A stretch of 64,000 nt of DNA from Desulfoluna limicola. GTDB lineage: Bacteria > Desulfobacterota > Desulfobacteria > Desulfobacterales > Desulfolunaceae. Every line of letters begins with the position of its first letter. The first letter of the stretch is position 1. This document shows positions 21,396 through 28,928 of this stretch, one piece after another. The stretch is from NCBI RefSeq assembly GCF_021654575.1, contig NZ_AP024488.1:6103501-6167500 (forward strand), read 5' to 3'. The translations under genes were made by a program, and so were the position numbers. The notes beneath the pieces were generated by a model. That model did no database searches and was not told the DNA's origin. It saw only the letters and a list, made by a program, of their open reading frames with translations.

Positions 21396-21674
21396 ATGAT
21401 TTGTACTACAGTTAGAAACGGCAGTGATTGCCCTATGATGACCAAGAGCGGCTGTTCCTATGAGGGCGGCGTTTGCAAGCCCATCATCGAACAGTGTGAG
21501 GGGTGCGCTCGCACCGGTGAGTTCTCTTCTGAAAAATACTGCATGTCCGCTCCAGATCCCGAAGCACGCTGGAAGACCGGTAACTGCAACCTCGCCACCC
21601 ACGTGAAGAACGTGATTGAAGAGAAAAAGCAGAAAATCAACCCCATTAAAGCATCCAAGCGTGGGGGCAGATAG
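21396..21674 (+). CDS. PxxKW family small cysteine-rich protein
   Basis: This 92-residue protein has nine cysteines (MICTTVRNGSDCPMMTKSGC, GGVCKPIIEQCEGC, YCMSAPDPEARWKTGNCN) and ends in a basic INPIKASKRGGR tail. It matches my memory of the PxxKW cysteine-rich family, small proteins common in sulfate-reducing and related Desulfobacterota; the name motif is PEARW here (Arg for Lys). Function is unknown. The cysteine spacing suggests metal or Fe-S binding. A near-consensus promoter in front and a strong terminator behind suggest an abundant single-gene transcript. Confidence 0.82.
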   Translation: MICTTVRNGSDCPMMTKSGCSYEGGVCKPIIEQCEGCARTGEFSSEKYCMSAPDPEARWKTGNCNLATHVKNVIEEKKQKINPIKASKRGGR

Positions 21675-26272: not shown

Positions 26273-27088
26273 CTAACAGGGGCCCAGCCAGAGTCCGGCC
26301 GGGTAGAGGGGGGAGTCGATGAATTTCCTCGGGGTATGGGGGACGTCGTCATATTCCACGCGTACGAGAAACAGGCCCTGAGGGGGTGCCGTGGCACCGG
26401 CTTTTGCTCGGTTGCAGGATTCAAGGATGCCTTTAAAGGCATCGGGGGAGGTGCGGGAGAGGCCCACATCCACCAGGGTGCCCACGAGGTTTCTTACCAT
26501 GAATTTCAGGAACCCGCTGCCGCAGAAGGTGAGGGTGATGAGCCCGTCTCCGTGGTCGTGTATGCACGCCTCGTCCATGGTGCGGACGGTGGTGGCCCTG
26601 GGGCTTCCTGTGCCTTCAAAGGCCTTGAAATCGTGGGTGCCCACAAGGTGTGCGGCAGCGGTTTTCATCGCCTCCACATCAAGGGGGGTTCGAATCTGCC
26701 AGAAGGTGTCGGCGTTCACAGCAGGGGCCAGGGGGCGGTTGATGATGCGGTAGGTATACCGCTTTCGTTTGGCGCCGAAGCGTGCGTGGAAGTCATTGGC
26801 CGACGTTCGGCACTCATGGATGGTAATGCTGTCCGGCAGCATGCTGTTCAGCGCTTCCTGGAATTTTTCCGCGGTGATGGCCGTCTCTGCCTTGAAATGG
26901 GCGACCTGCCCCACGGCATGGACACCGGCGTCGGTGCGGCCGGAAGCGATGACGGTCACAGGTCGGGTGACCATGCGTGTCAGGCACTCCTGGATGGCCT
27001 GTTGCACCGTGGGTTGGTCGGGTTGAATCTGCCAGCCGGCGTAGGGGGTTCCAAGGTACTCGATGGTGAGTTTGAAGGTGGTTTCCAT
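26273..27088 (-). CDS. truA: tRNA pseudouridine(38-40) synthase
   Basis: TruA isomerises uridines 38-40 in the anticodon stem-loop. The 271-residue product has the catalytic motif SGRTDAGVHAVGQ (Asp53), the KRKRYTYRI block, HDFKAFEG and the C-terminal FLKFMVRNLVGTLVDVG. The ATG at 27088 is used because homology begins there (METTFKLTIEYLGTPYAGWQ). The frame is open another 71 codons upstream only because it shadows the small selenoprotein gene. The stop of that gene lies 1 base before this ATG, suggesting translational coupling. Confidence 0.95.
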   Translation of the reverse strand: METTFKLTIEYLGTPYAGWQIQPDQPTVQQAIQECLTRMVTRPVTVIASGRTDAGVHAVGQVAHFKAETAITAEKFQEALNSMLPDSITIHECRTSANDFHARFGAKRKRYTYRIINRPLAPAVNADTFWQIRTPLDVEAMKTAAAHLVGTHDFKAFEGTGSPRATTVRTMDEACIHDHGDGLITLTFCGSGFLKFMVRNLVGTLVDVGLSRTSPDAFKGILESCNRAKAGATAPPQGLFLVRVEYDDVPHTPRKFIDSPLYPAGLWLGPC

Positions 27089-27089
27089 A

Positions 27090-27281
27090 TCAGATACGGT
27101 TGATGGGCACGCAGGCCATTTTTCGTTCAAAGGCTTCGTCGATGAGTTCCTTGAGTTTTTCGGGGCGGTAGCTTGTGTTGCAGGACCTGCAACGGAAGGT
27201 AACGCGCTTTCAGGAACGTTGAATTTCAAGGGGGGTGCCGCACTCAGGGCACTCTCCGTGTGTGTCGGTTTGATTGAACAT
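27090..27281 (-). CDS. Small selenoprotein with two CxxC motifs (in-frame UGA at codon 24)
   Basis: This 63-codon gene is easily missed. The ATG at 27281 starts MFNQTDTHGECPECGTPLEI, and UGA follows at codon 24 (27210-27212). The frame then continues KRVTFRCRSCNTSYRPEKL to a stop one base before truA. The cysteine pairs 11/14 and 31/34 form a zinc-ribbon-like layout with Sec24 between them and Cys57 near the end. A 17-base hairpin after the UGA is almost the same as my memory of the E. coli fdhF SECIS. I recall a family called dual CXXC small (seleno)proteins in sulfate reducers, probably this one. Function is unknown; redox or metal binding is inferred. Confidence 0.82.
27177..27193 (-). promoter_or_regulatory. 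SECIS hairpin of the small selenoprotein gene
   Basis: On the minus strand GTTGCAGGTCCTGCAAC forms a perfect stem with GGUC at the tip, at +20 to +36 from the UGA. It is the most canonical of the three SECIS-like hairpins here. Confidence 0.88.
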
Positions 27282-27558
27282 TTCAGATGTTTCCTGTACA
27301 TAAGGGTGGGTGGTCTCGCCCCTTGGGGGGAGGGCCCGCCAGATTTGGCAGCATGTGGCTCAGGTCATGTGCGTGATGGTTCAATTTTAAAGTGCCTGCT
27401 GCCGAAAGCGCCTCGCAATATCAGGGCGTATCGCTGAAGAAATAAACCACAACCTGTCGTTGATTGACAGGCTTCGTTTGATGTTTTGCGAGGCCATCAA
27501 TGAATGTATATAGAAGAAACGGGGCGGATTCAACCGCTCTTTGGAAGGAGATGGCTTC

Positions 27559-28290
27559 GTGACAGAAAACCAGGGGGTACGCCTGCAAAAATATCTGGCC
27601 CATGCAGGGGTCTGTTCCAGGCGGGCTGCCGAGACCCTCATCAAGGACGGAGAGGTCACCGTAAACAATCGGGTGGTGACGGAACTCGGGACCCGTGTGG
27701 ATCCGGGATCGGACCGTATTTGTGTGAAGGGTAAAGAGATTCGTGCCGAAGAGAAGAGGGTGTACCTTGCCCTTCACAAGCCAGTGGGCGTTATCACGTC
27801 TTGCAACCACGGGGACGCTAGGGTGGTGACGGATCTGGTGGATGTGCCGGAGCGGGTCTACCCGGTGGGGCGATTGGATCAGGATTCGTCCGGCCTGTTG
27901 ATTTTGACCAACGATGGGCGTATTCATCACCGGCTCTCGCACCCCTCTTTTGATCATGAAAAGGAGTATCGGGTGAGGGTGGCTGAGGCCATCCCGTCGT
28001 CTGCCCTTGCACGTATGGAGGCGGGCATTCGCCTCAGGGAGGGGAAGACCCGTCCCTGCAGGATTCGTCGGGAAGGCAAGGACAGTTTCACCATTGTGCT
28101 GCAGGAGGGGAAGAATCGTCAAATCCGGCGTATGGCCGAGGCGGTAGGGCATGATGTGGTGACCCTTAAAAGGGTGCGCATGGCCAATGTTCGCCTTGGC
28201 CAGCTGAGGTCGGGGCAGTGGCGTCACCTCTCGGAGGGAGAGGTAAGGGAGCTGTTGAAGCGAACCGGTATCGGGACAGGGAAGGGGTAG
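27559..28290 (+). CDS. rluB: 23S rRNA pseudouridine synthase, RsuA/RluB family
   Basis: This 243-residue protein has an N-terminal S4 RNA-binding domain (RLQKYLAHAGVCSRRAAETLI) and the catalytic motif VGRLDQDSSGLLILTNDG (Asp107). It ends with the EGKNRQIRRMAEAVGHDVVTLKR block typical of RluB/RsuA. RluB, which modifies U2605 of 23S rRNA, is the most likely assignment. The start is GTG at 27559, 8 bases after GGAAGGAG; the TTG at 27541 would put that site inside the gene. It is divergent from the selenoprotein-truA-gph operon; the 277-base gap shows no clear promoter. Confidence 0.88.
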   Translation: MTENQGVRLQKYLAHAGVCSRRAAETLIKDGEVTVNNRVVTELGTRVDPGSDRICVKGKEIRAEEKRVYLALHKPVGVITSCNHGDARVVTDLVDVPERVYPVGRLDQDSSGLLILTNDGRIHHRLSHPSFDHEKEYRVRVAEAIPSSALARMEAGIRLREGKTRPCRIRREGKDSFTIVLQEGKNRQIRRMAEAVGHDVVTLKRVRMANVRLGQLRSGQWRHLSEGEVRELLKRTGIGTGKG

Positions 28291-28298
28291 CGACGCAG

Positions 28299-28928
28299 GT
28301 GAATGTTTTATGGGGGCGAAGGGACAGCTACAGATACAGGGCCAGGGGTGAGTTTTATTGCCCGGGGTGTCGTCAGACCGTTGGCTGCCTGGCCGTGGAG
28401 ACGGTTCGGGTGACCCGCATTCTTTTTCTTCCTGTGTATCGGCAGGTGGGGGACTCGGGAAAAGTCAAGTGTCCCATTTGCGGCGGGGTCTTTGAACGTC
28501 AGGTGACGGCATTCAGCCCTGCGGTTTCCCGGGAGGGGTTGAAACCTGCCCTGGTCACGGTGATGCTGCTGATGATGGACGTGGATGAGGGCGAGAACCG
28601 GGTGGAGATGGCTGTTATTTCCAGGGTTGTGGCTGAGATGACCGGCAGTGCCATGGGGCCCGAGGTTATCGAGCGTGAGGCAGAGCGACTTCGGTCTGAC
28701 GTTGATGCCCTTGGCAATCAGCTTGCGGCCATCGCTCCTTACCTCACCAATGCTGAAAAACGGATGATTCTCGAGTCGGCCTGGCGTGTGGCTCATGCCG
28801 ATGGACACGCACCAGAAAAAGAGATGGCCCTGATGCGGCAGGTGGCTCTTCTGCTTGAGGTACCTGATTCCATTTACAGGCGAGTGACAGGGGATACGGA
28901 AAGGGATGGCCTTTCGCCCGGTGTGTAG
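28299..28928 (+). CDS. Zinc-ribbon plus TerB-like domain protein of unknown function
   Basis: The product is about 210 residues. The first 70 contain two CxxC pairs (FYCPGCRQT and VKCPICGG), a zinc ribbon. The C-terminal half is helical and resembles TerB/DjlA-type domains (EKRMILESAWRVAHADGHAPEKEMALMRQVALLL). No signal peptide; one short hydrophobic stretch (LVTVMLLMMDVD) is part of a helix. The start is uncertain: GTG at 28299 lies just after the rluB stop, while the frame is open back into rluB. It is probably the second gene of the rluB transcript. Function is not known. Confidence 0.65.
   Translation: MNVLWGRRDSYRYRARGEFYCPGCRQTVGCLAVETVRVTRILFLPVYRQVGDSGKVKCPICGGVFERQVTAFSPAVSREGLKPALVTVMLLMMDVDEGENRVEMAVISRVVAEMTGSAMGPEVIEREAERLRSDVDALGNQLAAIAPYLTNAEKRMILESAWRVAHADGHAPEKEMALMRQVALLLEVPDSIYRRVTGDTERDGLSPGV

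Follow-up and report, generated by a model that had tools for sequence, protein, structure and literature searches.

A small gene with an in-frame UGA upstream of truA

The window analysed here, meaning the whole 64-kb stretch of DNA (64,000 nucleotides), carries on its minus strand the truA gene for tRNA pseudouridine(38-40) synthase (26273..27088; TIGR00071, 197.8 bits) and, directly 5' of it, the coding frame of a 63-residue dual-CXXC selenoprotein (27090..27281), recognised by its match to the NCBIfam model NF041197.2 and its conservation in relatives. Read from 27281 down to 27090 on the minus strand, this frame translates as MFNQTDTHGECPECGTPLEIQRS-U-KRVTFRCRSCNTSYRPEKLKELIDEAFERKMACVPINRI-stop, where U stands for an in-frame UGA at codon 24 (27210..27212, minus strand). 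Two CXXC knuckles flank this codon, CPEC at residues 11-14 (27240..27251, minus strand) and CRSC at residues 31-34 (27180..27191, minus strand), both assigned from the frame translation and the alignment of family members. The spacing is C-x2-C-x9-U-x6-C-x2-C, and the Sec sits within R-S-U. The stop codon of the small gene is a TGA (27092-27090, minus strand, counted within 27090..27281), and one base separates it from the truA ATG at 27088, giving the junction TGA-T-ATG. This re-reading of the frame confirms the initial annotation, which named no strand but had described 63 residues, a UGA at codon 24, the CPEC/CRSC layout, and an end one base before truA. A probable ribosome-binding site, ACAGGAA, lies about 9 nt 5' of the ATG (27291..27297, minus strand), and the TACAGGAAA string at this site is unchanged in 6/6 orthologues.

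Upstream of the truA start, 71 further codons in its frame contain no stop, reaching back to an ATG at 27301; this stretch (27089..27301, minus strand) overlaps the selenoprotein gene, which is read in a different frame. Were this stretch a genuine N-terminal part of TruA, the enzyme would have 342 residues; the open frame from the ATG at 27301 speaks for such a long form, as does the absence of stops over at least 84 codons of this frame in three close relatives (L088, L089, and L090). The extension is, however, interrupted by stop codons in two of the five close relatives (L087 and L091), with the truA start following the small gene at a distance of 1 or 30 nt (30 nt in L091). Moreover, TIGR00071 covers residues 5-241 of the short form, and in other Desulfobacterales truA stands apart from the small gene, mostly with a gap of 18-28 nt. 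Because the extension frame is stopped in L087 and L091, TruA starts at 27088 and the longer call is an artefact, so that the earlier dismissal of the 71-codon extension as false was correct; the chance that the stretch belongs to TruA is negligible. The open truA frame (window 26273-27301, minus strand) is a trap for automatic start calling, and the annotation of truA starts in the genus deserves checking since the small gene overlaps this open frame.

Two other Cys-containing products were noted in the window on the plus strand. One is a frame of 236 codons (28218-28928) with CPGC and CPIC, both in its N-terminal part, for which no NCBIfam match was found at E 1e-10. The other is a small, Cys-rich protein of the PxxKW family (21396-21674; NF038144, 120 bits).

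Family membership and distribution

The read-through protein matches NF041197.2 along the complete profile (positions 1-53 of 53) with 68.6 bits and an E value of 3.7e-19, where the curated cut-off is 40 bits. A six-frame search of the window genome with NF041197 returned this gene, at 59.9 bits, as the sole match in the genome. In addition to a score above the cut-off, the protein has its Sec/Cys position between two CXXC motifs at the fixed spacing, as well as the RxU motif. NF041197 (CxxC_Se_CxxC) is described as a 'dual CXXC motif small (seleno)protein' and is equated with OS_HP3, motif RxU, in a 2026 review (PMC13188914). As summarised in that review, OS_HP3 was predicted in 2007 by Zhang and Gladyshev in an Olavius algarvensis symbiont (PMC13188914). 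The likeness extends over the entire profile, the five Cys/Sec positions and their spacing, and the R-S before Sec. The window gene differs in adjoining truA, which is a Desulfobacterales arrangement, and its protein has VPINRI at the C-terminus, where CDR[IL] is commoner, yet nothing essential differs. On sequence grounds, the window gene is an additional member of the NF041197/OS_HP3 selenoprotein family. The initial annotation had called it an overlooked selenoprotein gene: the Sec frame is real, but its kind was already catalogued, as the NF041197 match and the OS_HP3 listing demonstrate. Its confirmation adds one member to a still uncharacterised selenoprotein family, in which only the function would be new ground. 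By its authors' own account, deep-Sep failed to pick up the OS_HP3 gene of one genome (PMC12013277).

The 'hypothetical protein DW' of deep-Sep (PMC12013277) is also placed under NF041197, with the motif GxU (PMC13188914). It shares the dual-CXXC plan with Sec in between, but has GxU where the window protein has RxU. Among the loci collected, a second dual-CXXC set (L076-L085) scores lower, is mostly GRU, and often shares a genome with the first set; it probably corresponds to the DW protein. No member of this second set was found in the genome of the window.

Of 297 genomes of the phylum searched with NF041197, 81 matched, 64 of them above the cut-off, so that roughly one sampled genome in four has the family. 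A single internal TGA is found in most matches, and none in the others. In the alignment of 58 main-form members, C11, C14, C/U24, C31, and C34 are the only invariant columns, with the Sec/Cys column occupied by Sec (UGA) in most members and by Cys in the others. The C-x2-C-x9-[UC]-x6-C-x2-C spacing is kept in 66/69 members, and a C-terminal end of the form [DN]R[ILVF], downstream of the UGA, is conserved in 49/60. A Cys-only branch (L009-L015 and L019-L021) ends in IIYD or similar, not in [DN]R[ILVF]. Many loci of this branch have a same-strand gene of about 186-192 codons directly upstream, probably encoding a phosphoribosyltransferase.

Closer to the window, TruA marks the genome as that of a sulfate-reducing bacterium of the Desulfoluna type, being 76-85% identical to its counterparts in D. 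spongiiphila and D. butyratoxydans as well as in related MAGs. The small frame with its UGA lies 5' of truA in all five of these Desulfoluna-type genomes (5/5) and at 8 further Desulfobacterales-type loci, the latter with a gap of 18-28 nt, and the UGA is retained in 6/6 Desulfoluna-type orthologues. The initial annotation had raised the question of Cys homologues at the same locus; Cys forms do exist, but at other loci, and the truA-linked copies found were all Sec.

The post-UGA hairpin and decoding as selenocysteine

A SECIS-type apical hairpin, GTTGCAGGTCCTGCAAC (27177..27193, minus strand), starts 16 nt past the UGA, consists of 7 bp and a 3-nt loop, and overlaps the codons of the second CXXC. 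The initial annotation had likened it to the fdhF SECIS, and comparison with the E. coli gene bears this out. The fdhF sequence (NC_000913) reads TGA-CACGGCCCATCG-GTTGCAGGTC-TGCAC, the E. coli K-12 sequence past the UGA being CACGGCCCATCGGTTGCAGGTCTGCACC, and the 10-nt core GTTGCAGGTC at the hairpin apex is common to both. The core of fdhF lies 12 nt past the UGA, four bases nearer than the window hairpin at 16 nt, and the window hairpin, unlike that of fdhF, has a perfect 7-bp stem and overlaps CXXC codons. At this locus, Rfam gave no family above its gathering score. As evidence for Sec by itself, the hairpin was rejected: its shape is common, with 32 perfect 7-bp/3-nt-loop hairpins on both strands of the 64-kb window, and the local folding z-score at the hairpin is weak (-1.3). 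The case for Sec is made by the comparative evidence, the hairpin alone being weak evidence.

Comparison among relatives shows that the hairpin is constrained. In tests that treat related sequences as independent, and whose P values are optimistic for that reason, none of the 17 hairpin sites varies in six orthologues, compared with 65/169 sites elsewhere (Fisher P = 0.0008); of the third codon positions, 0/6 in the hairpin differ among the orthologues versus 39/57 outside it (P = 0.002); a codon-column permutation test for the invariant 17-nt run is borderline (P = 0.06); and, across the phylum, at least 6 of the 7 stem pairs are formed in 35/52 Sec genes versus 1/18 Cys genes (Fisher P = 4e-6), the pairing register being taken from the window hairpin, which makes this last contrast not fully blind. 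As Sec and Cys genes both encode the second CXXC at this place, the need to encode CXXC is not enough to account for the hairpin. Among the outermost stem pairs, exchanges such as G-C, T-A, and C-G occur. Folding energies after synonymous shuffling showed only a trend between Sec and Cys genes (mean z -1.57 versus -1.01, P = 0.08), because the stems of Sec genes fall into two or more registers, whereas pair counts in the window register separate Sec from Cys genes clearly. Six loci (L047, L030, L056, L059, L063, and L070) have a stable hairpin in another register, with a stem pairing positions of about 6-16 with 21-31 past the UGA. The position of the SECIS thus differs within the family, several Sec members using this other register.

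If the UGA were an ordinary stop, the gene would be a 23-codon fragment or a pseudogene, with a downstream frame that is open by chance. The abundance of hairpins of this size by shape in the window and the modest folding z-score would both be compatible with this explanation, but the behaviour of the downstream half is not. Its sequence is conserved in many families throughout the phylum, relatives have Cys in place of Sec in the same column, and the Desulfoluna-type genomes show an excess of third-position changes among the post-UGA codons. The initial annotation held that its reading would fail if conservation ended at the UGA; conservation in fact runs on to the C-terminus. The conservation past the UGA refutes the ordinary stop in practice, and we regard it as exceedingly improbable.

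The genome of the window encodes SelA, SelB, and a tRNA-Sec with the UCA anticodon. As a discriminator between Sec and Cys, selA is uninformative, since it was present in all tested Sec, Cys, and no-match genomes except two incomplete ones. The locus and its genome show what is expected of a selenoprotein gene, namely Sec/Cys exchange, conservation on both sides of the UGA, a constrained post-UGA hairpin, and the SelA/SelB/tRNA-Sec machinery. Judged from the sequence comparisons, the UGA at codon 24 is almost certainly read as Sec, and in the joint claim of Sec decoding and NF041197/OS_HP3 membership we place high confidence. SelB with tRNA-Sec would recognise the hairpin over the second CXXC codons and insert Sec at residue 24.

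Predicted ribbon fold and possible roles

The zinc-ribbon-like layout suggested in the initial annotation is backed, at low model confidence, by a Pfam match and a predicted β-hairpin. The window protein scores 26.0 against Zn_ribbon_6 (PF07191), whose gathering score is 25. In the structure model (mean pLDDT 64.5, pTM 0.40), two predicted strands (residues 17-23 and 26-31) are joined by a turn that contains Sec24, and a helix spans residues 40-56; the β-hairpin predicted between the two CXXC knuckles has low pLDDT and weak fold matches. Using this weak model, Foldseek returned no match at E <= 0.001, and the VIA structure search reached a best Z of only 4.0, its ribbon-like matches being weak. 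A PDB sequence search was likewise weak, with 2jrp as the best match (E 4e-5). The family profile resembles metal-binding ribbons, including HypA (3a43, E 1.7e-4) and YfgJ-type proteins, and a weak structural likeness to the Trm112-type ribbon 6zxw_H was seen (Z 3.4, rmsd 3.4, 45 aligned). The Zn_ribbon_6/YfgJ-type ribbons resemble the window protein in their knuckle spacing, but they are double ribbons without Sec and the likeness is short. A zinc ribbon with Sec at the hairpin tip is the putative fold, predicted at low model confidence.

In such a ribbon, the four Cys would bind one zinc ion (or iron), and Sec would be exposed at the tip of the β-hairpin, between the knuckles and at the far end from the metal. 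The selenol would then be a redox or electrophile-reactive residue directed towards a partner, and not a Zn ligand. If the model is right, an exposed, reactive selenol directed at a second molecule is a likelier role for Sec than ligation of a metal or pairing in an internal disulfide. The protein would most likely be a cytoplasmic thiol-redox accessory, and we lean slightly towards a redox mechanism.

Gene neighbourhood was considered as a clue to function and rejected, as the neighbours vary by lineage and point to no pathway. The small gene adjoins truA in Desulfobacterales, where co-translation with truA would follow merely from gene adjacency. Outside this order, its neighbours are a phosphoribosyltransferase, an acyltransferase, ArgJ, a semialdehyde dehydrogenase, and other housekeeping genes, and many Desulfobacterales truA loci are without the small gene. 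This variation by lineage argues against truA as a functional partner and favours a general role.

Two other roles can be set against a redox function. Sec24 may be a metal ligand, or a residue that captures metals or metalloids, in which case the protein would be a metal chaperone or sensor and not a redox protein. Capture of this kind has been proposed for other uncharacterised selenoproteins (PMC13188914), and both the four invariant Cys plus Sec and the profile's resemblance to HypA and YfgJ-type ribbons would suit it. The Sec lies nine and six residues from the knuckles, though, and the model places it in the far-end turn; the latter argument is not decisive because the confidence of the model is low. 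We consider metal capture unlikely, if still a serious contender. The adjacency to truA and the weak Trm112-type likeness could also suggest that the small protein cooperates with TruA to modify tRNA, for instance as its zinc-ribbon partner, in the way Trm112 serves Trm11. The housekeeping neighbours outside Desulfobacterales and the many Desulfobacterales truA loci that lack the small gene speak against this partnership, which appears very improbable.

Returning to an exposed selenol, the protein may be a phylum-wide housekeeping ribbon in which the Sec at the tip is not a thiol-disulfide partner of the protein's own Cys, perhaps using its conserved C-terminal [DN]R[ILVF] sequence to work with a common partner. 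To our knowledge, there is no worked-out precedent for such a placement of Sec at the tip of a β-hairpin, and we put this proposal forward tentatively, as a rather doubtful one. The truA-linked copies in culturable Desulfoluna are a simple place for testing the function of the family.
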